The position numbers and the translations under genes were made by a program. Below are positions 16,556 through 63,622 of a DNA stretch of 64,000 bases, piece after piece (position 1 is the first letter of the stretch; every line of letters begins with the position of its first letter). Source of the stretch: an uncultured Bacteroidales bacterium (GTDB taxonomy: Bacteria; Bacteroidota; Bacteroidia; Bacteroidales; Paludibacteraceae); assembly GCA_902778935.1 (NCBI GenBank), contig CACYZT010000002.1, forward strand, positions 328,693 through 392,692, given 5' to 3'. The notes below the pieces were generated by a model, which saw nothing but the letters and a program-made list of their open reading frames with translations, was not told the origin of the DNA and made no database searches.

Positions 16556-18096
16556 AAAAAATCACTCTTTTGCTGCTGGCTGCAGCACTGATGGGCGCCT
16601 GTACAGCGACCGAGTATCAAACAACCACGCAACGCGAGATTAACGCGCTGACCAAGTCCGCATCGTTCCAGATGCCGAAAGTACCTGTTCCTTCGTTCCC
16701 GTCCGGCACATACAACGTGCTTGATTACGGAGCAGACAAAACGGGTGTAGCACTCTCCACCGAGGCTATCCAAGGCGCTATAGACGCTTGTACCAATGCC
16801 GGCGGTGGAACGGTTATCATCCCTGAAGGAATCTATTTCACAGGCCCGCTGACCTTGAAATCCAATGTGCGTCTATATACGGAGAAGAACTGCTTCGTAG
16901 TCTTCTCGCACGATTTGGACTTATATGAGATATACGACGAGTGGTTCGAGGGTATTCCGACAAAACGCTGCACGAGTCCGCTCAACGCACGCGATGCAGA
17001 AAATATCGCTATCACCGGACATGGTACATTCAACGGCAACGGTGACTGGTGGCGTCCGCTCAAGAAGAGCAAGATGGCTCCGGGACAATGGAAGAAACAT
17101 CTCAAAGAGAAAGGCGGCATTGTGGTGAACGATATCTGGTATCCGGATAGTGCCTCGTTGCTTGCGCAGAGTTACTGCCTGGACCAGAACGTGCCTGTTA
17201 TTACCGATGACAGCCTGTGGCAAGTAGTGAAATCATTCCTTCGTCCGGTAATGTTGCATTTCGTAGGCTGCAAGAATATTTTGCTTGAAGGCGTAACCTT
17301 TGAGAACAGCCCGGCGTGGAATCTCCACCCGATGTGCTGCGAGAATATGATATTGAACAACCTCTATGTCCGCAACCCATGGTACAGCCAGAACGGCGAC
17401 GGAGTGGACGTAGAGAGCTGCAAGAACGTCGTTATAGCTCATTGCTCGTTTGACGTAGGCGACGATGCTATCTGCATGAAGTCCGGCAAAGACAAACCAG
17501 GTCGCGACAGAGGCATCCCGACAGAGAACGTAGTGGTCGATGACTGCGTCGTTTATCACGGTCACGGCGGTTTCGTTTGCGGCAGTGAGATGTCCGGTGG
17601 CATCAAGAATGTGGAAGTTCGCAACAACCTCTATATCGGTACAGACGTAGGTCTGCGCTTCAAGAGTACACGCGGTCGCGGCGGTGTGGTAGAGAATATC
17701 TACATCAACGGCGTGAACATGGTCAATATTCCGAATGAAGGCTTGCTGTTTGACCTCTTCTACGGCGGTAAAGGAGCAGGCGAAGAGAGCGAAGAGGAAC
17801 TCGCAGCTCGTATGAACGCAGAGGCGCCGGCGGTAAGCGAAGAGACGCCGGCATTCAAGAATATCGTCATTGAGAACGTCAAAGGCGCCAACCTCAAACG
17901 CGCTATCTATTTCAACGGCCTGCCGGAGATGAAGATTCAAAACGTGACATTGCGCAACATCCAGATGAGCGCTACCGAAGGAGCCCTTTTCCGTCAGACG
18001 AACGGCCTTGTCATCGACAATGTGGACATCAAAGCCGAGAAAGGCGAAGCGTTCTCGCTCGCTCCGACCGTAGAGAATGTCACGATCAATAAATAA
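16552..18096 (+). CDS. Glycoside hydrolase family 28 (polygalacturonase-type) lipoprotein
   Basis: 514 residues. The lipobox MGAC puts the lipidated cysteine at residue 17. The mature part begins with the pectate-lyase-like block YNVLDYGADKTGVALSTEAIQGAIDAC. Family GH28 active-site groups are present in order: NGDGVD (about 282-287), GDDAI (about 303-307), GHGG (about 337-340) and RFKSTRG (about 369-375). They form the right-handed beta-helix catalytic site that hydrolyses galacturonan or rhamnogalacturonan bonds. Location is periplasm or outer membrane. The DUF4861 neighbour supports a pectin-use role. Confidence 0.92.
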   Translation: MKKITLLLLAAALMGACTATEYQTTTQREINALTKSASFQMPKVPVPSFPSGTYNVLDYGADKTGVALSTEAIQGAIDACTNAGGGTVIIPEGIYFTGPLTLKSNVRLYTEKNCFVVFSHDLDLYEIYDEWFEGIPTKRCTSPLNARDAENIAITGHGTFNGNGDWWRPLKKSKMAPGQWKKHLKEKGGIVVNDIWYPDSASLLAQSYCLDQNVPVITDDSLWQVVKSFLRPVMLHFVGCKNILLEGVTFENSPAWNLHPMCCENMILNNLYVRNPWYSQNGDGVDVESCKNVVIAHCSFDVGDDAICMKSGKDKPGRDRGIPTENVVVDDCVVYHGHGGFVCGSEMSGGIKNVEVRNNLYIGTDVGLRFKSTRGRGGVVENIYINGVNMVNIPNEGLLFDLFYGGKGAGEESEEELAARMNAEAPAVSEETPAFKNIVIENVKGANLKRAIYFNGLPEMKIQNVTLRNIQMSATEGALFRQTNGLVIDNVDIKAEKGEAFSLAPTVENVTINK

Positions 18097-19180
18097 ACAG
18101 GTTTGTATCCCGTCAGCTAAAGCGGTCTGTATTCTGTCAGCCGCTTTAGCGGCGGTCTTACTCACGGGTTGCGCCCCGCGGGTAGCTACCTCTTTCTGGC
18201 GGATCGGTACTCCGGCTGATTCAACCAGAGAGGGTTATACCGTCATTCACGCCGAAGGCAAAACGCGGCACTGCTACCCTATTACAGAATGGTCAGATAT
18301 GCCTGAGGTGGATACCTATCATCAGCTCCATCACCATGGTGTAGCCGTTGAGTCTGAACTCATGGCGTACCGCATTTATTTCGACAAGAAACAGACCATC
18401 GATCCTTACTGCAAACGCAAGCCTCAGCTGGAACTCGCGCAGAGTCATTGGTATCCGAACGACAGCTTGCTGGCAGCGGGTTACGGCGATGATATTCTCC
18501 GCGTGAGTGGCACGGTAGGCGTTGGTTCCGTGAAATATTGGAACGGCAAGAAGATGGTTCATATTGAGCCGGTGGCAGAGAGAAGTCAGCGGATTGTGCA
18601 ATCCAAAAGGGACCAAGCTACGATAGAAGTGGCTGTCAAAGGATGGCAAATAGAGGACAAAATGGTCAATATGGTCACGCAATATACGATGCTTGCCGGC
18701 CATAGAGATTTGCGTTGCGATGTTTCTGTAAGCGAACCCGTAGAAGGTCTCTGCACCGGCGTGCAGACTATTCCGGCCAAAGGAGGAAAAGACACTATAA
18801 CCATTGTTTTGCCTAATGGGATTCTTCTCGCATCTTGGGGCACGGATTGGCCTGTAAACGACTCAGCCAAGTATGCCAAAGAGACTGTTGGTTTAGGTGT
18901 GTTCATCCCGAAAGCGTTTGCCGGAGAATGTGTCCATGACAAGCAGAATAACATGTGCTTGCTACATCTTACAGCGAAGACATCTTACAGCAAAGCGGTC
19001 TTACAGTCCGAAGGACGGTCCTACAGTCCAAAGGACGGTCTTACAGCGAAGCGGTCAGAAATGTGCCGCGCACATTTCTATCTCACTTGCTGTGGAGCGA
19101 CCAAAGAAAACCACCCCGTGGCAACAAGTGCCGAGGAGTGGTTTGCATATCTCCGCCGCTGGGCTTCCCGATTGAAATAA
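18077..19180 (+). CDS. DUF4861-type lipoprotein carrying repeat insertions
   Basis: 367 residues. The signal peptide has lipobox LTGC (Cys32). The mature part resembles DUF4861 proteins of pectin-utilisation loci (AYRIYFDKKQTID, LAAGYGDDILRVSGTVGVGSVKYWNGKK, TQYTMLAGHRDLRCDVSV, GLCTGVQTIPAKGG), with a C-terminal SAEEWFAYLRRW. It overlaps GH28 by 20 bases. Two stretches derive from a structured DNA repeat: the hydrophobic core of the signal peptide (about 11-29) and an insert near residues 300-328 (SKAVLQSEGRSYSPKDG). Reading frame is kept throughout. The activity is unknown. Confidence 0.75.
   Translation: MSRSINKQVCIPSAKAVCILSAALAAVLLTGCAPRVATSFWRIGTPADSTREGYTVIHAEGKTRHCYPITEWSDMPEVDTYHQLHHHGVAVESELMAYRIYFDKKQTIDPYCKRKPQLELAQSHWYPNDSLLAAGYGDDILRVSGTVGVGSVKYWNGKKMVHIEPVAERSQRIVQSKRDQATIEVAVKGWQIEDKMVNMVTQYTMLAGHRDLRCDVSVSEPVEGLCTGVQTIPAKGGKDTITIVLPNGILLASWGTDWPVNDSAKYAKETVGLGVFIPKAFAGECVHDKQNNMCLLHLTAKTSYSKAVLQSEGRSYSPKDGLTAKRSEMCRAHFYLTCCGATKENHPVATSAEEWFAYLRRWASRLK
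18105..18165 (+). repeat. YTACA-stem-GGTC repeat units within a signal peptide
   Basis: Two units: GTCAGC-taaa-GCGGTC at about 18112-18127 and GTCAGCCGC-ttta-GCGGCGGTC at about 18136-18157. The second is a perfect hairpin. They encode the hydrophobic core of the lipoprotein signal. Confidence 0.7.
18966..19062 (+). repeat. YTACA-stem-GGTC repeat cluster inside the DUF4861-type gene
   Basis: Four tandem units: TTACAGC-aaa-GCGGTC, TTACAGTCC-gaa-GGACGGTC, CTACAGTCC-aaa-GGACGGTC, TTACAGC-gaa-GCGGTC. The flanks stay constant while both stem arms change together. A partial unit precedes them. Confidence 0.9.
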
Positions 19181-19306
19181 TCAGAAGACGGGTGACTTAT
19201 GAGGCATTCCATATGGAGGCGGACTACCCGGAGCCAACTGCATCAAGTCGTTGGACTGTAAGATGATTATCTCTGTTAAGGGGCGTATATATTCTTTCTT
19301 CATCTC

Positions 19307-22300
19307 TTATCGAATCAGTTTACCATTTACGTCATACATTGCGCCATCCGGTGTGATGACATAAATCGTATTATCAATGAGCACTTTGCGAACAGAGTGA
19401 TTGTCCTCGTCGATATTGTCAACGCCTTCTGCGATTTCCGGAGCATTATGCAACTTGAGTATCAAGCCGAAATCATTCTTAACACCAGCATTCAGAACTA
19501 TCTCTGCCGGACTGGAAGTCAAATTCCAGATGACTTTACCATAATAGGTTAAGAATAACTCTGCATCTTCCGGTGCTTGCTCTACAACCAATGTATAAGT
19601 AGCCTGCTTAGGAGCATATATATTCAAAGGACAGCTCGCCTCACCATATACAAGCGGCATTTCTACATCGCACAAATTATAATTACTCTTACTCTTTCTC
19701 GTCCACATCTGTGCGACATTAGCTTCCGTCGGATTACCCATCTTCATTAGGTCATGACCAATTACGTAAGAAGATTTAGCATCTTCGCTTGCGGAGAAGA
19801 ACAAGACATCCTCATTTTCCTCCGAACCATCCATACGCAAAGCTATGCGGAACTCTTCGGTTTCCTCTACATCGCGTTTGGGGGCATAGTAAATAGGATG
19901 CTCATTGGATGCTTCCGAAGCAGTCCATGAAATGCTACTTACGTTCTCAGGCACCTGGATAAAGAATGCCGTTCCGACAGCAAAGGTGTAGTTTTCAATA
20001 CTATCAATAGCGACATAATTATTGCCCTTATGACTGAAGATTTGTGCCTTATACCCAGTATTCAAATGTCCATGACTTAACATACCATTACCGATACCAT
20101 TCCAGCCGCGTAATTCCTCCACATCACCTTCAGAGCATTGCGTCTGCTGCGAATAGCCATTTTTCCGCGAACCTTCTTTATTCCATACAAAGCGGAACTT
20201 ATTCTGATCAAGGTCTGCCCGATAATTTAATGTAATGCTATATAGTTTGCCCGGCTTCAGAACGTCAACATTCGACATTTTATGCCATCCGTTTCCTCCA
20301 TGGGCTCGATTGTACTCATCTGCTTCATAGATAATGAAGTCTGTTCCGTTAAGCATTAAACGATCTTCTATACTTTCTATACGATATATGCCATTTAGAA
20401 CATTAACATTAAACGGCACGGTAAAGTTATACCATCCATAACTAATTTTACCACTAGGATCAAACGAGATGTCAAAATAAGTGTTACCGTTTATATTCAT
20501 CAAATCGCTCTCGTCTAAAATTTGACCGGAAGTTCCTCCTTGCTGGCCTTTTACATTATCTTTTTCCGTGCTTCCCAATTTTGATTCTATAGAGATGTTG
20601 TTGACTTTCAGTTCTCCATTGAGTATTATCTTACCGCCGTTCTCAACATATAAGTTACCTGCTGTTTCCTTAAGCGAATAAGAGTCAACACTTAGAGTTG
20701 CTCCACTCTTAACTGTTACAGTCACACCAGGATTGATAGTCAAACTTCTTGCCGATATATTTGAATTTGAAACCACATCCATATTGTGCTTAACAACTAC
20801 ATCTTTATAATCATCATACCAATCATTATCCCAGTTAGGAACAAGGTCTGAGGAAGTGCCTTGTTTTCCCGTAAACTTGCATATATTCGGGTCCTCAAGC
20901 AAAGGATAAACCGTTCCTTCTACATCAACCAAATAGCATTTTCCGTATCCAGAAGCTGGTAATTCCCCTATTGTCTTAGTCAAGCGAGCCAATAAGTCGC
21001 CAGCAGTATTCAAAGGCGGGAACGCACGTCCCTTAGCATCATATACTTTCACCGTTCCATCATTGAATGTACCACCATCAATGATGGTATGGCGCGGCAT
21101 ACCAAGAATAGAAGCACCGGTAATTGTACCATCCTTAATTGCGACAGAGCCTGTAGTTTTATCTGCTCCGCTCATGTTTGCGATAGCCATATTGACATTA
21201 TGACCGCTTATGGTCATGGCTGCATTATGCAACTCTACTTGTGAGCCTTTAATCTCCACACTACCATTAGCACTACCTAAATCAATAGATGGTTTGTTGG
21301 AAGAAGGTATAATAGCTAATTTACCCAAGCCTTCTGCAATAACAAGTTTGGATGCATTAGAAGAAAGCTGAATAGCAGCATTGGAATTAGCAATGAACTT
21401 ATTGTTCAGTCCGTTGATAATAAGTTTTGCCACATAGGGATTTGCATTGCTCGAACTATTAACTTCAAGAACAGCATCCTTCGCCATTATTTCACTATTA
21501 TGCAGATAGAGTTCCGTTTGCTCGCCTACATTACCATTCAACTGAATAGCAGGTACAGAGGTTTTCAAACTTGCCGGTTTATAGCCCATAAAGGCAATTT
21601 TCTTCTTATCTGCTACTGAGATATTCAGCGTTGTAGTAGCAGCATCAAACGTACGCGTATGCACGTACCTATTATTATCTTTCGCATATACGAAGCACGG
21701 CGTGTGAACATTGCCTTCTGCTAAATTGATGGCAGGCAGCAAACCCGACCAGCTTGAGGTCGAATCTCTCTTATCAACCGCTGATGCACTAACTCCGTAT
21801 ATATATAAGGTGTCAAAACGCGGAGTTCCGGCATTGAAACAAGTCGAGAAATTGTAGGTTGTTATTCCGCGATAAGGAGAATTCTCCGATGCAGGCTGTT
21901 CAGTACCGGTTCTGAAAATAAGGGTACTTGAATTAGCGGATGTTAACTCAGGTGTGGCAGACTGTACCAAAACACTCTCCATAACTACGTTCCCAACCTT
22001 GAAATTCAAAACACCGCTTTTACCGACATCCGTACAACGAACGCGCACCTCATAGCTTCCCATTTCGTCAATACCTACGGATTTCGTATGAATATCCACA
22101 TAGAAAGCATCATTAGTAGATTCAACTTCAATAGCTTCAGGTGAATCACAGGAACCAATCGAAGAGTAATTCAATGTTACTATTTGAGGCTCCTGCAACG
22201 GACGTTCATCCGCATCACCAAAGGTTAAAGAAGATTTATCCGCTTCAAGATATCTTTTCCTGGTAATTTGCAAGTTTTGTACAAATCCTGTAAAGTTTCC

Positions 22301-37803: not shown

Positions 37804-40542
37804 ATGCGAAAACTTTTTACATTAACTTTGGCCTTATTGGCCTCCTTTAGCCTGTGGGCAGCGTTGCCGACATTACCAACGAGCACACTTACAATTCCTA
37901 ATTTCCCAGCATCAGGATGGAAGGGGATAATGCTTCCTAGTGTTATCGACACGACTGACAATTGGTACATTGTTAGTCCATATGAGATTTATCAAAGTGC
38001 CTTTTCGTGGTCTAACACCGCTGGAGGAGGATCTTCAGATGGAACTTGGGCTGCTACTGGGATTTTCCCTGCAAACACCAGGTATACAACAACAGATTCG
38101 AAAGGAAAGTTTAAATTTGCCACATTAAAAGAGTTTGATAGCAAAAAGCATTATTATGGCTATCGAGTAACTAATTGCGAAGCTGTTGCTTTAATTGGTG
38201 CTTCTGGCTCCAATAAAAAGCGCACCATTTATCTTGCGGCTTACGAGATAACTAATAGTACATTACCAGACTCTGCTAATGCAACAAAAACAGCTTCTTT
38301 TGAATCTTCTAACTTAACTCAAATTATGATTGAAGATTTGGATGCGACAAAAGAGTATTATATTTACGTTACTCAAAAGGGTACTGGTTCTGGAGGTTCA
38401 AGCGAAGGCAATAGTAACTTCTATTCAATTGCATTTAAGTCCGCACCTTCATGCGAAGATTCAGAATCCACAATTAAAGGAGATACCACTCTATATGTAA
38501 ACAATGGTTACAACATTGGCTTTAATTCGATTAACACGAATGGCTGCACTATTGATGTAAAGAAAAACGGTGCAGCTGCAGTTGATGATGTTGATTATTC
38601 AAAAACAAATATCAACAACTATACTTTCCTAAAAGCAGGTGAATTTGTTATCACAATTAGTCAAGCAAAAGATGCTAACAATCACTGTGCCGTTGAAGAA
38701 AGCGTTACTGTAACTGTTTTAGATGCTACTCCTGTTGCTGCTGTAACTGTAGCAGGTGAAACAAACGCATATGTAGGCGCAGAACTTACTTACACTGCAA
38801 CTGCCGCAAATGCAACTGCTTATGAATGGTATTTGGATGATGTAAAGCAAGGAAGCGACTCTGCTAAATTTATTTACACCGCTGTTAAGGGAAGCCACAC
38901 TATCGTCTGCAAAGCGCGTAACGAGTTCAATGTTGATCCATACCCCGAATGGATTGCTTCTGTAGCGAAAGAAGTTACCATTACTAACCCGAGTGGCACA
39001 CTGATTACGTATACTCTTACAGGAGGTACTGTAAATAACGCAAATATACCCGTTGGAGCAAATAATATTGTAGGTGGTACAGCAAATGCTCAAACAGAAG
39101 CTGCTCAAAAAGGTCCAGAGGGCGACAAAGGCTACAAACTTGGAAGTGCTGGCCATTTTATCCAACTAACATTAGCAAGCGGTTCTTTCCTTGCTGGAGA
39201 CACCGTATGTGTATACGCAGTACCAGAAGATAAAGATGTATTATCCACACTGACAATATCAAGTGATAAAGATAAAACTGACGTTATTGGCTCTGCAACT
39301 GGTTTAACAAATGAGACCTCCAAACCAGCCAAGATTGTACTTACAAAAGGTGCAACTGATGTGTATTTATCTCGTCCTACTAAAGGAGACCAAAACCCTG
39401 TAGTAAAATATATGTCGGTTATCCGTCCGAAAGAGATTAAATCAGTAACTGAGAATTTGTCAAATGTTAAGATTGACGGAGAGGCTATTTCATCTGATAA
39501 CTTGACAACATTGTTGGCCGATGAGAGCCTTGATATCGCAGAAAGTTATCTTAATGCTCCGGAAGTAAAGTTCTACAAAAACATCCGAACTACCTATGAA
39601 GATGACACCTACTCTGATAAGCTTGACTCTATCGTTGTAACTTCTACAACAGAAGCCGGAAAATGGCAGGCACAAGCGACCATCAACGAAGTAGAATATA
39701 CTATCACAATGGCTAAGACTCCGTCGTATTCTGTAACCTACAAACTCGGTTCTAGGACTCTTGGCTCGGAATTGGTCATCGCAAATGGCAATCCTGCCGA
39801 TTATGAGGATTATCAAACTATAGATAATAATGGTTTGTCCACATTCGTGAACTGGTATAGTAGATCTGACTTGTCTGGCGATGCTGTAACCATGGCAAGT
39901 GCTACTATAACTAAAGACACAACGTTTTATGCAAAATTCAACATCAAATATGCTTCTTCTATCAACATGGAGCAGTGGATTTTGGATAACGGTGCAGGCA
40001 AAGGTTCAAGCACGAAAACCGATGCATTGATTGCCGAGATGAATAGCCGCAATTATTCAACCAATATTGCATGGTCGAATGACTCTAAAGAAGAAATAGA
40101 ACTTGACTCTCTTGATGATGGCAAAACTAGCCGAAACGAGCCTTACCTTGGACTCAAGGTTAAAAAGTCGGGTAAGTTAATTAACTTCCGCTTGAAAGAA
40201 GGTGAGTATGTTAAGGTAAAATTCGGTCAAGTAAATACAACCCCGAAAGTTGCAATTAACGGAGGTGACTATACGGCTATGACTATTACTGACGATGTAT
40301 ATACCTACAACGCCACTGGCGAAGATTTGGTAAGCATCTATATCGATGTTGCTAAACAAGCGGTAGTTTACAAACAAATCATGATTAATGAGGAGATTCA
40401 GGATGTAACACTTCCTGACACTCCTACCGCTATCGACAACACCGCTGATGAAATCAAGGCTGTGAAGTTCATTGAGAACGGACAGTTGTTCATCCGCCGT
40501 GGTGAGAAGGTTTATACCATCACCGGCGAAGAGGTTAAGTAA
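37804..40542 (+). CDS. Secreted surface protein, paralogue of the 976-residue protein
   Basis: 912 residues with a Sec signal (LTLALLASFSLWA, cleavage near residue 19). An N-terminal domain of about 200 residues is followed by beta domains and an Ig-like unit (about 305-395, AYVGAELTYTATAANATAYEWY) that matches the 976-residue protein. An InlB-like unit has KDTTFYAKF. The region SSINMEQWILDNG...LGLKVKKSG aligns with SSLNIEQFVLDNG...LGLKLKTSG in the paralogue. It ends in KFIENGQLFIRRGEKVYTITGEEVK, the shared export signature. Codons are richer in A/T than in its paralogue. No -33/-7 promoter was found upstream; a very A/T-rich leader precedes the start. Confidence 0.83.
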   Translation: MRKLFTLTLALLASFSLWAALPTLPTSTLTIPNFPASGWKGIMLPSVIDTTDNWYIVSPYEIYQSAFSWSNTAGGGSSDGTWAATGIFPANTRYTTTDSKGKFKFATLKEFDSKKHYYGYRVTNCEAVALIGASGSNKKRTIYLAAYEITNSTLPDSANATKTASFESSNLTQIMIEDLDATKEYYIYVTQKGTGSGGSSEGNSNFYSIAFKSAPSCEDSESTIKGDTTLYVNNGYNIGFNSINTNGCTIDVKKNGAAAVDDVDYSKTNINNYTFLKAGEFVITISQAKDANNHCAVEESVTVTVLDATPVAAVTVAGETNAYVGAELTYTATAANATAYEWYLDDVKQGSDSAKFIYTAVKGSHTIVCKARNEFNVDPYPEWIASVAKEVTITNPSGTLITYTLTGGTVNNANIPVGANNIVGGTANAQTEAAQKGPEGDKGYKLGSAGHFIQLTLASGSFLAGDTVCVYAVPEDKDVLSTLTISSDKDKTDVIGSATGLTNETSKPAKIVLTKGATDVYLSRPTKGDQNPVVKYMSVIRPKEIKSVTENLSNVKIDGEAISSDNLTTLLADESLDIAESYLNAPEVKFYKNIRTTYEDDTYSDKLDSIVVTSTTEAGKWQAQATINEVEYTITMAKTPSYSVTYKLGSRTLGSELVIANGNPADYEDYQTIDNNGLSTFVNWYSRSDLSGDAVTMASATITKDTTFYAKFNIKYASSINMEQWILDNGAGKGSSTKTDALIAEMNSRNYSTNIAWSNDSKEEIELDSLDDGKTSRNEPYLGLKVKKSGKLINFRLKEGEYVKVKFGQVNTTPKVAINGGDYTAMTITDDVYTYNATGEDLVSIYIDVAKQAVVYKQIMINEEIQDVTLPDTPTAIDNTADEIKAVKFIENGQLFIRRGEKVYTITGEEVK

Positions 40543-40589
40543 TCGTGCCGCAAGGTAAGAAATAACAAAACTTTTTACTTTAACTTCAA

Positions 40590-40618
40590 CCAAGGGCAGC
40601 TCAAAAGGCTGCCTTTGG
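40590..40618 (+). terminator. Hairpin after the 912-residue surface protein gene
   Basis: CCAAGGGCAGC pairs with GCTGCCTTTGG (one mismatch region) around TCAAAAG. No clear T run follows. Confidence 0.6.
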
Positions 40619-40796
40619 TGCGTTATGCCCCGCACTGATGATATATATGTAAATAAAACAAAATAAACACTGCTGAATTATTTTAGTACTGCGTACAACG
40701 AGGCTTATTTAGCTAATATGTTCTCACAAGTAAACTTGCAGCCCATAATATCCAAACAACCCTCATCTCTAACGAGATTAAAATAATTCATCAGCC

Positions 40797-41058
40797 ATAA
40801 ACCAAGATAAAATTATATATAGCGCTTAGCGCTGACCGCTTACGCTGTAGGACCACTACGTTGTAAGACCGGCTACGCCTGTAGGATATGAGAGAGAAAA
40901 TTTTTATTTATGTTTATTGCCGACAGTGGTTGTTATCTCGTAGAGATGTAGGTTAGGATGATTGAGCGGCTTGGAAGCTCGCTTACGAAGACGGACAAGC
41001 ATACGAAGATACACAGCCCAAAGGGCAACAACCAATGGAGGGGTTTATCTTGGTTTAT
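40797..41058. mobile_element. Candidate MITE-like element
   Basis: ATAAACCAAGATAAA (40797-40811) and its perfect reverse complement TTTATCTTGGTTTAT (41044-41058) bound 262 bp without a gene. No target-site duplication is evident, so mobility is inference. Confidence 0.4.
40838..40893 (-). repeat. YTACA-stem-GGTC repeat cluster between genes
   Basis: Minus-strand units: CCTACAGGC-gta-GCCGGTC, TTACAAC-gta-GTGGTC, CTACAGC-gtaa-GCGGTC. They have the same frame as the clusters at 18105 and 18966, with different stems. Confidence 0.85.
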
Positions 41059-41121
41059 TTACTTTCTATAGTGCGTTTGGGGTGCAAAATAAAGAAAAAT
41101 TGCATTTTTTTGCAAAAATAT

Positions 41122-41152
41122 TTGGTTTGTAACTAAAAAATAGTTACCTTTG
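41122..41152 (+). promoter_or_regulatory. Promoter of hicAB
   Basis: TTG at 41122-41124, 20 bp, TACCTTTG at 41145-41152. An inverted pair GTAACTA/TAGTTAC within the spacer could be an operator for the antitoxin. Confidence 0.8.
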
Positions 41153-41167
41153 CACAAAATTTGTTAT

Positions 41168-41425
41168 ATGAGTTCAAAAGACAAACTAATTACACGCTTT
41201 TTAGCCCTGCCGTCTGACTTTACTTTCGACGAGCTGGAGCGCTTGCTTAATTTGCTTGGCTACACCAAATCGAACAAAGGAAAAACATCCGGTTCGCGAG
41301 TGGTGTTCAAAGATAAAAACGGGCATCCAATAATGCTTCACAAGCCTCATCCGGGAAATATTGTAAAACATTATGCGTTGCGACAAGTATTAGAAGAATT
41401 ACAATCAAAAGGATATATAAAATAA
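41168..41425 (+). CDS. hicA: HicA-family toxin
   Basis: 85 residues from the ATG at 41168; an upstream in-frame start at 41150 overlaps the promoter. A dsRNA-binding-like fold: DFTFDELERLLNLLGYTKSNKGKTSGSRVVFKD, then MLHKPHPGNIVKHYALRQVLEEL. HicA toxins cleave mRNA. The His normally placed in the GSH motif is replaced by GSR here, while the HKPHP motif is kept. Six bases separate it from hicB. Confidence 0.85.
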   Translation: MSSKDKLITRFLALPSDFTFDELERLLNLLGYTKSNKGKTSGSRVVFKDKNGHPIMLHKPHPGNIVKHYALRQVLEELQSKGYIK

Positions 41426-42690: not shown

Positions 42691-43463
42691 TACAGGTTCA
42701 AGATATTGTTAAGTCTTTCGATGGGAACATCGTCCTTAACCATGTCTCCACGGAGATGCGGGACGGAGAGGTGAACATGATCATCGGTCAGTCGGGTTCG
42801 GGTAAGACCGTGCTGATGAAATCGCTTATCGGCCTTCATCCGCTGGATAGCGGAAAGATTCTCTATGACGGGCGCGACCTGGCGGAGATGCGCAGCAATG
42901 ATATCCGTTTGCTGCACCGCGAAGTAGGAATGCTGTTCCAGGGTAGCGCGCTGTTTGACTCCATGACCGTCATGGAGAACGTGCTGTTCCCGATGGAGAT
43001 GTTCTCCACCAAGAGTCGCGCAGAGATGAAAGAGCGTGCAGAGTTCTGTCTGCGCCGTGTGGAGATGCCCGAACGCGTATGGAACCTCATGCCGAGTGAG
43101 ATCTCCGGCGGGCAGCAGAAACGTGTGGCTATCGCCCGTGCGATTGTGCTGGAACCGAAATACCTGTTCTGCGACGAACCGAACTCAGGTCTGGACCCCA
43201 AGACCAGTCTCGTCATCGACGCACTGATACAAGACATCACACGGGAGTACAACATCTGCACGATTGTCAATAGCCACGACATGAACTCTATCATGGAAAT
43301 AGGCGATAACATCGTATTCCTCAAGAACGGCAAGAAAGAATGGCAGGGTTCGCGGCACGAAATCATGACCAGCGACAACGAAGCGCTGAACGACTTCGTG
43401 TTCGCATCAGAACTGTTCAAGAGAATAAAGACCGCTGCGCTGACAGAAGAAAGACAAAAATGA
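42687..43463 (+). CDS. mlaF: MlaF-family ABC transporter ATPase
   Basis: 258 residues. Walker A GQSGSGKT, Q-loop region GMLFQGSALFDSMTV, signature SGGQQKR, Walker B YLFCDEP and H-loop NSHD are all present. The phrase FQGSALFDSMTVMENV is typical of MlaF. Partner of the preceding permease. It overlaps the following secreted-protein gene by four bases. Confidence 0.93.
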   Translation: MIQVQDIVKSFDGNIVLNHVSTEMRDGEVNMIIGQSGSGKTVLMKSLIGLHPLDSGKILYDGRDLAEMRSNDIRLLHREVGMLFQGSALFDSMTVMENVLFPMEMFSTKSRAEMKERAEFCLRRVEMPERVWNLMPSEISGGQQKRVAIARAIVLEPKYLFCDEPNSGLDPKTSLVIDALIQDITREYNICTIVNSHDMNSIMEIGDNIVFLKNGKKEWQGSRHEIMTSDNEALNDFVFASELFKRIKTAALTEERQK

Positions 43464-62952: not shown

Positions 62953-63622
62953 GGTTTAAGGTCGAAGACCTAAATAATGTCTCGAGGTCTTTGACCTCAT
63001 CCACCATTTTGTCGGCTTTTATCTGTCCGTGGTCGAGGATGACGACTCGGTCGCACATCTCGCGCACTTCCTGCATGATATGGGTAGAGAGGATGATGCT
63101 TGGCTTTTGGCTATTCGCTGTTAGCTGTTGGTTCGCTAAGCCGCGTATAAGGGCTCGTATCTCCACGAGCTGATTGGGGTCAAGTCCTGTTGTCGGTTCG
63201 TCGAGTATCAGTAATTGCGGGTCGCCAATCAGCGCTTGCGCCAAGCCTACGCGCTGGCGGTATCCCTTGCTCAGTTCGCGTATATGCTTGTGGCGCTCGG
63301 GTGTGAGGCCGACGCGTTCGATGAGGTCGGAGACCGTTTTACTGACAGATGTCAGCCCCGCCATGAACTGCAGGTATTCGGTCACATACATCTCTTCGTA
63401 CAGCGGGTTGTTCTCCGGCAGATACCCGATACGAGGGGGCACGGTTACCGAACCGCTATCGGCACGCCATAGTCCGACAAGTATCTTCATCAGTGTGGAC
63501 TTGCCGGCACCGTTGGGTCCGAGCAGTCCGAGCACTTGTCCTTCGGGAATGGTCAGCGTCACATCCTTGAGCACCTGCTGCGCACCGAAGGATTTGCTTA
63601 TATTTTCAATTTTTATGCTCAT
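62948..63622 (-). CDS. gldA: GldA-like ABC transporter ATPase, short form
   Basis: 224 residues from the ATG at 63622; an ATG at 63628 is also possible. Walker A GPNGAGKS, the GldA-like RIGYLPENNPLYEEMYVTEYLQFMAGL, signature LSKGYRQRVGLAQALIGDPQLLILDEPTTGLDPNQLVEIR and STHIMQEVREMCDRVVIL. GldA needs GldFG for gliding in Flavobacterium, but close homologues occur in non-gliders. Here the usual C-terminal extension of about 70 residues is missing. An insert ANQQLTANSQKP is encoded by a repeat tract. The promoter lies so close that the leader is only about 14 bases. Confidence 0.82.
   Translation of the reverse strand: MSIKIENISKSFGAQQVLKDVTLTIPEGQVLGLLGPNGAGKSTLMKILVGLWRADSGSVTVPPRIGYLPENNPLYEEMYVTEYLQFMAGLTSVSKTVSDLIERVGLTPERHKHIRELSKGYRQRVGLAQALIGDPQLLILDEPTTGLDPNQLVEIRALIRGLANQQLTANSQKPSIILSTHIMQEVREMCDRVVILDHGQIKADKMVDEVKDLETLFRSSTLNR
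63101..63134 (-). repeat. Word-like repeat tract inside gldA
   Basis: Near-copies of AACCAACAGCT/AACAGCGAATAGCCAAAAGCC on the minus strand, read in frame as NQQLTANSQKP between conserved ATPase blocks. Confidence 0.65.

Follow-up and report, generated by a model that had tools for sequence, protein, structure and literature searches.

The window, i.e. the whole 64,000-nt stretch of DNA analysed here, belongs to an uncultured Bacteroidales bacterium (Paludibacteraceae) and contains short hairpin units in two clusters and at a few other positions (Table 1). In the gene of a DUF4861 protein, four intact abutting units form an in-frame array (18985-19056), and a second cluster lies on the minus strand. 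The initial annotation, made from the letters of the sequence, placed the units of the first cluster at 18966-19062 and those of the minus-strand cluster a few bases off (40838-40893, against 40834-40884 as read here). The inner arms that it described do pair, except that those given as TCC/GGA are one pair short, the long arms being GTCC/GGAC because the G after CA pairs with the C before GGTC. The minus-strand cluster is flanked on both sides by dispersed repeats of ~165-170 bp (40649-40814 and 40893-41062), the best genomic copies of which are 90-95% identical; the repeat at 40649-40814, like an imperfect palindrome, also finds copies at one and the same place on either strand.

Table 1. 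Hairpin units and associated features in the 64,000-nt window
Feature	Position	Strand	Basis
Host gene of the array, DUF4861 protein, 367 aa	18077..19180	+	Pfam PF16153, E 3.4e-57
Unit CGTCA-GC taaa GC-GGTC, close to DUF4861 gene start, CC (not TC) before it	18111..18127 (contig C2 346803-346819)	+	sequence
Unit TGTCA-GCCGC ttta GCGGC-GGTC, also near DUF4861 gene start	18135..18157	+	sequence
Degenerate first unit TTACAGCGAAGACATC, ending CATC rather than GGTC	18969..18984	+	sequence
Intact unit TTACA-GC aaa GC-GGTC	18985..19000	+	pattern match and sequence
Intact unit TTACA-GTCC gaa GGAC-GGTC	19001..19020	+	pattern match and sequence
Intact unit CTACA-GTCC aaa GGAC-GGTC	19021..19040	+	pattern match and sequence
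Intact unit TTACA-GC gaa GC-GGTC	19041..19056	+	pattern match and sequence
Terminal hairpin abutting last GGTC; 10-bp arms, loop CGC; extends into conserved host codons	19057..19079	+	sequence
Unit CTACA-GGC gta GCC-GGTC	40867..40884	-	sequence
Unit TTACA-AC gta GT-GGTC	40851..40866	-	sequence
Unit CTACA-GC gtaa GC-GGTC	40834..40850	-	sequence
Terminal hairpin AGCGC taa GCGCT, 3' of last GGTC	40821..40833	-	sequence
Lone unit TGTCA-GC gca GC-GGTC, antisense within an ORF	43430..43445	-	orientation count and sequence
Lone unit TGTCA-GT aaa AC-GGTC, could be chance	63332..63347	-	sequence

The general form of the unit is NNN-CA-[stem, loop, stem]-GGTC, involving a 3-nt head, the dinucleotide CA, a stem of 2-6 bp (rarely longer), a loop that is mostly GNA or GNNA, and a terminal GGTC, with units following one another head to tail and the first unit of an array nearly always preceded by TC. 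The repeat family proposed in the initial annotation is real and larger than claimed, since the tandem junction pattern CGGTCYNNCAGN{5,14}CGGTC has 133 matches in the genome against 0 for the reversed control. Its proposed flanks, YTACA and GGTC, are partly right: GGTC and CA are constant, but YTACA is too narrow and describes a single head class, TGTCA being as common in this genome (28 TGT, 23 TTA and 12 CTA heads among 81 units). The pattern YTACAGN{5,12}CGGTC gives 70 genome matches, compared with 17 when reversed, and the looser YTACAN{4,14}GGTC on its own shows no enrichment in this genome (244 versus 264). The commonest insert between the flanks has 7 nt, corresponding to a 2-bp stem (45/97 units of this genome; 174/278 units from other genomes, which had been found using a 7-nt pattern), and stems of at least 5 bp are few in the unit list.

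Covariation of the stems was assessed on units defined by their flanks only, with 3' partners dealt at random among units of equal length (500 or 1000 deals). For the 11-nt inserts of this genome, pair 2 is paired in 12 of 13 units compared with a dealt mean of 5.9, and for the 9-nt inserts of other genomes in 27 of 29 compared with 12.2, values reached in 0 of 1000 deals in both cases. Inner pairs beat nearly all deals wherever the column varies, near-invariant pairs being uninformative. Paired arm changes thus exceed chance, as the initial annotation had predicted.

The loops follow a rule of their own. In a census of 281 units from this and other genomes of the genus, from which scan-pattern matches were left out and in which loop classes required a stem of at least two Watson-Crick pairs, there were 181 triloops and 50 tetraloops. 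GNA accounts for 134/181 triloops and its opposite-strand equivalent TNC for 2/181; GNNA accounts for 37/50 tetraloops (15 GNRA versus 22 GNYA) and TNNC for none. The loop-closing pair is C-G in 151/181 triloops. Contig C2 of this genome alone gives GNA in 13/20 triloops and GNNA in 7/8 tetraloops, and a partly overlapping sample gives 52/69 and 13/17. The loops are therefore strand-specific and without the GNRA preference typical of RNA, which points to single-strand DNA. According to PMC4686876, DNA mini-hairpins are extraordinarily stable when a GNA or GNNA loop is combined with two or more G-C pairs (Tm 78 C for GCGAAGC), and PMC8373063 cites Nakano et al. for a selection of stable tetraloops that yielded, among others, d(cGNNAg). 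Most of the units, not all, have this combination of loop and stem.

Of the four intact units in the first cluster, a generic DNA energy model predicted a mini-hairpin only for the last (with outer AC/GT pairs); it predicted none in the second cluster, and the folding z-score was -3.24 for the first stretch (terminal hairpin included) and -0.29 for the second, modelled results that would weigh against an explanation by hairpin arrays. The covariance models of Rfam 15 had no match in 18000-19400 or 40500-41300 up to E 1. GC skew along contig C2 is weak, too weak to tell a lagging-strand bias of the units.

Homologous arrays allow the constraint to be read in place. In 16 comparisons covering 44 units (mean flank identity 85.9%), for which only one side was required to be intact, changed sites amount to 3/198 in stems (one broken pair), 1/88 in CA, 2/88 at loop ends and 8/176 in GGTC, versus 32/132 in heads and 13/54 in the loop middle; these comparisons are not independent, since ten of them set loci of a single five-member RadA group against each other, with one such pair counted twice. 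A further 312 comparisons of less than 70% identity were left out of the set, indicating that turnover or lack of the array is common. Recounted by locus pair (9 pairs), the RadA group has 0/122 changes in stems, 0/58 in CA, 2/58 at loop ends and 8/116 in GGTC, against 27/87 in heads and 10/37 in the loop middle. Outside RadA (8 comparisons, counting two arrays of L234 and L279 in both directions) the figures are 5/114, 1/44, 0/44 and 2/88, against 6/66 and 5/30, and head plus loop middle differ from stem, CA and loop ends at Fisher p 0.006. RadA thus shows a strong contrast and the other arrays a modest one, the tenfold size of the overall contrast being carried by the RadA group.

Where both sides are intact (14 array pairs, 37 units, the last two pairs possibly lacking unit-by-unit homology), 79 stem pairs are the same, five have changed on both sides and still pair, three show one-sided changes to or from wobble and none is broken, intactness being here a condition of selection. 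Clear double changes are seen between L237 and L268 (GTCC/GGAC to GCCC/GGGC, and AC/GT to GC/GC). Selection on the protein does not explain this conservation of stems, because successive 16-nt units are read in different frames. The claim that a hairpin shape rather than a sequence is selected or copied is upheld by the covarying stems, the GNA and GNNA loops and the lower rate of change of stems compared with heads and loop middles.

Many of the arrays occupy variable loops of conserved proteins, and the initial annotation's suggestion that they can sit within a coding region without breaking the frame, confirmed in the DUF4861 loop, is seen again in RsgA and RadA. DUF4861 matches occur in 41/91 genomes of the genus, the present one included, and the hypervariable loop that holds the array is located between NNLCLL and HFYLT. 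Among 30 orthologous loci, 16 were readable: besides the present genome, G068, G085 and G077 bear arrays of the same kind with other units, the loop in G002, G081 and G033 has a GGGAGGG hairpin, and further loci have short tandem repeats. The insert measures 114 nt in the present genome and, at its shortest, 21 and 27 nt in others. Orthologues thus have either another sequence or units of the same kind with other stems, and not a shared peptide devoid of the repeat signature. In RsgA (20/30 loci read), G000 and G085 carry four-unit arrays, G058 and G063 a single degenerate unit, and G043 and G044 related units with longer spacing.

For RadA, identified from the Pfam domains of the L035 protein, all 30 loci were read, with arrays in seven (G000, G045, G031, G074, G002, G090 and G043) and other sequence in 23. 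The unit lengths are 16,16,17,18 in five species, 16,16,17 in G000 and 16,17,18 in G031, and the fourth unit has GGC..GCC arms in G045, G074, G090, G043 and G031 and GCC..GGC arms in G002. The RadA arrays look inherited. Other hosts recognised by Pfam are Dus, radical SAM, metallo-beta-lactamase fold, O-methyltransferase, cytochrome c assembly, SpoU methylase and 5'-nucleotidase proteins; one of ten host proteins scanned had no Pfam match. In relatives, the RadA, RsgA and DUF4861 loops (L175-L204, L374-L403, L428-L457) hold other species-specific short repeats, of the AGTCGAAAGAC type, the AAAGTACAAAGGACAAGG type and as CCCTTCCCTTAAGGGAGGGG hairpins, as though insertions landed in these loops quite generally.

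The heads behave differently from the hairpins. Head agreement between arrays of one genome is 0.262, compared with a permuted mean of 0.153 and maximum of 0.197 (28 genomes, 124 arrays; 0/500 permutations reach it), and agreement of stems and of loops is not above permutation (474/500 and 321/500 reach it). With the present genome left out, the values are 0.274 versus 0.119 for heads (0/500), and stems (52/500) and loops (41/500) come nearer the edge. From one species to another, the heads of the RadA arrays change together and the hairpins stay: TTA,TGT,TGT,TGT in G090, TTA,TTA,TTA,TTT in G002 and CTT,CTT,TTT,TTT in G043. A separate head sample from six genomes is small (29 units, of which G085 and G090 supply 24). 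Judged from these sequences, genome-specific heads may be a sign of a trans-acting factor.

Among 91 sampled genomes of the genus, the present one included, 75 have at least one junction (range 0 to 133; 39 genomes with at least 10), although genomes with one or two junctions may reflect chance, the reversed control giving up to two per genome and 13 over all 91. In 59 genomes from other families of the order, 11 have one junction match and none has more; one of these 59 scores 20 in the reversed control. A stricter pattern applied to a phylum sample (n=296) gave 31 matches in the present genome and a single match in one of the 295 others. A scan of species genomes returned at least 115 stretches; among 80 loci listed, 74 bear titles naming Paludibacteraceae, Bacteroidales or Bacteroidia and are MAGs, often of rumen or gut origin.

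The other six loci belong to Saprospiraceae (3), Flavobacterium sp., Flavobacteriales and Lentisphaera marina, and their genomes contain 9-16 junctions each with a control of 0 or 1; therefore the family reaches another phylum. Near-identical units are found outside the group in L224, L230, L275, L223, L273 and L284 (Lentisphaera marina, Flavobacteria, Saprospiraceae). Carriage by phage was not seen, no stretch of viral_contigs having the three-unit pattern. The feature is real, widespread within one genus, and constrained as a nucleic-acid hairpin.

At their 5' junction, arrays have C at -1 in 118/121 and T at -2 in 115/121 cases, bases that the search did not demand, some of the 121 junctions being ends of degenerate units. 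According to PMC8266576, TnpA_REP of E. coli and of Stenotrophomonas maltophilia cleaves at C|T, in E. coli on either side of the REP. The TC|Y junction is present in nearly all arrays and would be a candidate cleavage site next to the hairpin. A terminal hairpin with an arm of at least 5 bp directly follows the last GGTC in 12/121 arrays, compared with 1.6% of random positions and 0.9% of positions downstream. Such hairpins are present at 19057-19079 and in L010, L034, L040 and L256; several genic ones reach into host codons, and they could arise by template switching. Sequence related to the 19057-19079 hairpin follows the arrays of G068 and G085. An origin as an inverted copy of the host flank was considered and set aside: it is suggestive in DUF4861, RsgA and Dus, but comparison of L245 with L040 shows that one left arm in Dus is largely shared host sequence, and no more than the 12/121 arrays have such a hairpin.

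A candidate enzyme is encoded by a divergent gene family of the genus whose proteins combine an HUH motif, a tyrosine region and an additional C-terminal domain of ~190 aa (GTVxVSAAISEGEKQI...KPSGVYFEACA). Its likeness to RAYTs rests on alignment A1, below-cut-off matches to NF047646 and weak PDB matches to IS200-type transposases (best E 8e-4), and four of its proteins scanned had no Pfam match beyond Y1_Tnp. Members include L107, L114, L116, L155 and L174. The family is present in 52/80 genomes of the genus (1-8 matches each, fragments included), with two copies in the present one. A match occurs in 31/34 genomes with at least 10 junctions versus 21/46 with fewer (Fisher p 1.7e-5, kinship ignored) and in 16/16 with at least 40, and as a rank correlation the relation with junction number is weak (Spearman 0.31, kinship likewise ignored). 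Eleven of the 52 genomes bearing the gene hold 0 or 1 junction. Neither A1 nor NF047646 gives a match in two array-bearing genomes, G003, which has 24 junctions at 96% completeness, and G035, which has 18 at 73%, and NF047646 gives none in the Flavobacterium MAG G151, a genome with 9 junctions. The link is only a correlation.

These genes were considered as a source of the units that is itself flanked by them, an idea abandoned when no locus proved to be flanked: the junction motif was absent around all 30 PF01797 loci, 24 further loci gave one with a single loose unit match, and among 19 more loci the matches listed include one array, 283 nt downstream and apparently inside the next gene. Complementarity between guide and cut site of the IS200/REP type likewise gave no simple fit with NNCA or GACC. 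Some of the RAYT-like genes carry other tandem hairpin repeats, in frame inside the ORF (L166, L168, L169) or beside it (L130, L137, L150), by eye apparently one repeat family per gene.

We consider it about an even bet (probability roughly 0.5) that the units are REP-like arrays of single-strand DNA mini-hairpins and are read by a protein acting in trans, which may be an HUH enzyme of the RAYT-like kind. The protein probably recognises the units by shape. In single-stranded DNA, each unit would fold into a stable d(cGNAg)-type mini-hairpin, and the protein would read this hairpin together with CA, GGTC and the genome-specific head. It would cut and join at TC|Y, so that a new unit could land after any TC; the TC ending the previous unit would also be a landing site, which would generate head-to-tail arrays. 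The best candidate for this enzyme, and the weakest step of the proposal, would be the HUH protein of the TnpA_REP/RAYT kind with its extra C-terminal domain. No fresh transposition was seen among the compared arrays. The explanation is weakened because none of the RAYT-like genes examined is flanked and because G003 and G035 have arrays and no such gene.

A rather unlikely alternative is that the arrays serve the host as binding sites for a nucleoid, repair or replication protein, having been spread by old recombination and kept by selection with no current transposition. Constraint in place across species, clearest in RadA, would fit such sites, as would the RadA unit lengths of 16,16,17,18 shared by five species, which go beyond what dead insertions should retain, and the genome-specific heads, which suggest a co-evolving binder. 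Yet 16/91 genomes of the genus have no junction, including G027, G032 and G048 at 97-98% completeness, the locations are arbitrary protein loops, the array is absent from 23/30 RadA loci, and constraint is weaker outside RadA. A purely mutational origin, in which slippage multiplies the units and polymerase template switching within the hairpin uses one arm to repair the other, producing covariation with neither selection nor an enzyme, seems distinctly unlikely. It would account for tandem growth, stem repair and the terminal hairpins (12/121), which fit template switching, but would leave unexplained the conserved CA, GGTC and loop G and A, the TC junction, the dispersal to unrelated loci and the heads shared genome-wide.

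Action of the hairpins in mRNA, on stability, processing or termination, is suggested by the orientation of genic multi-unit arrays (79 sense versus 11 antisense) and is nonetheless improbable. Genic single units, chance matches among them, are 22 sense and 21 antisense, and intergenic multi-unit arrays have no sense bias (upstream gene 21 same and 18 opposite; downstream gene 13 same and 23 opposite). Antisense stop codons, by removing longer arrays, can account for the genic bias; moreover, GNYA loops are no rarer than GNRA loops, and neither of the two window stretches compared with Rfam has a match. That the feature is just a repetitive peptide, passed down by descent in a protein loop that tolerates it, is very improbable: the loops are indeed hypervariable, and other species have different tandem repeats there, but successive 16-nt units conserve the same nucleotides in different frames, and many arrays are intergenic.

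Returning to single-strand mini-hairpins read in trans, a wider and more tentative proposal, which we consider less likely than not, is that the units represent a previously undescribed class of DNA element, mobile or functional, recognised as a single-strand mini-hairpin. Such a class would comprise natural d(cGNAg)/d(cGNNAg) hairpins with exchangeable stems, a head code changing genome-wide with the trans factor, and re-coded protein loops. If the mini-hairpin reading is right, genomic repeats would be tied to the biophysical rule of ultrastable GNA DNA mini-hairpins, a natural system would keep structure while leaving stem sequence free, and the genome-wide change of head code could be used to find the reading protein. 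Hairpin arrays code loops of conserved proteins, namely RadA, RsgA, Dus and others.

Among known systems, REPs and REPtrons, as described in PMC3733652, share with the present family short dispersed palindromes, a constant unpaired tag, variable paired stems, clustering and patchy occurrence among species, as well as many dispersed copies, some of them intragenic and leaving the reading frame open. By contrast, the REP tags given there are GTAG or CGTC, whereas here they are GGTC (GACC on the opposite strand) and CA; REP stems have 5-13 bp (GTAG) or 8-9 bp (CGTC) as opposed to 2-6 bp; and REPs occur mainly as HH dimers, compared with head-to-tail units on the same strand. A RAYT gene flanked by the repeat, which defines the REPtron, was absent among the loci examined here, and the CGTC class is likewise described as having no transposase. 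Thus, the family works like a REP system in several respects, yet belongs to neither the REPs nor the REPtrons. Rickettsia palindromic elements (RPE) are also palindromic repeats inside ORFs, RPE-4 and RPE-6 being CGTC repeats (PMC3733652), whereas the units here are mostly of 16-20 nt, in tandem and with another tag.

A literature search covering titles and the opening lines of abstracts found no description of the element. PMC6006769 reports atypical secondary structures beside TnpA_Y1 genes of subclass 2.6 in Bacteroidetes, and subclass 2.4 genes with in-frame REPs. Compared by description only, these structures resemble the present units in phylum, non-GTAG tag, weak secondary structure and copies elsewhere in the genome, but the units do not flank the HUH genes examined here; an earlier record of the motif may exist among the subclass 2.6 structures. 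The closest physical counterparts are the d(GCGAAGC)-type mini-hairpins of Hirao and co-workers (via PMC4686876), which have the same loop rule and at least two G-C pairs, and which are treated there as oligonucleotides and parts of designed aptamers, whereas here they form a dispersed genomic family.
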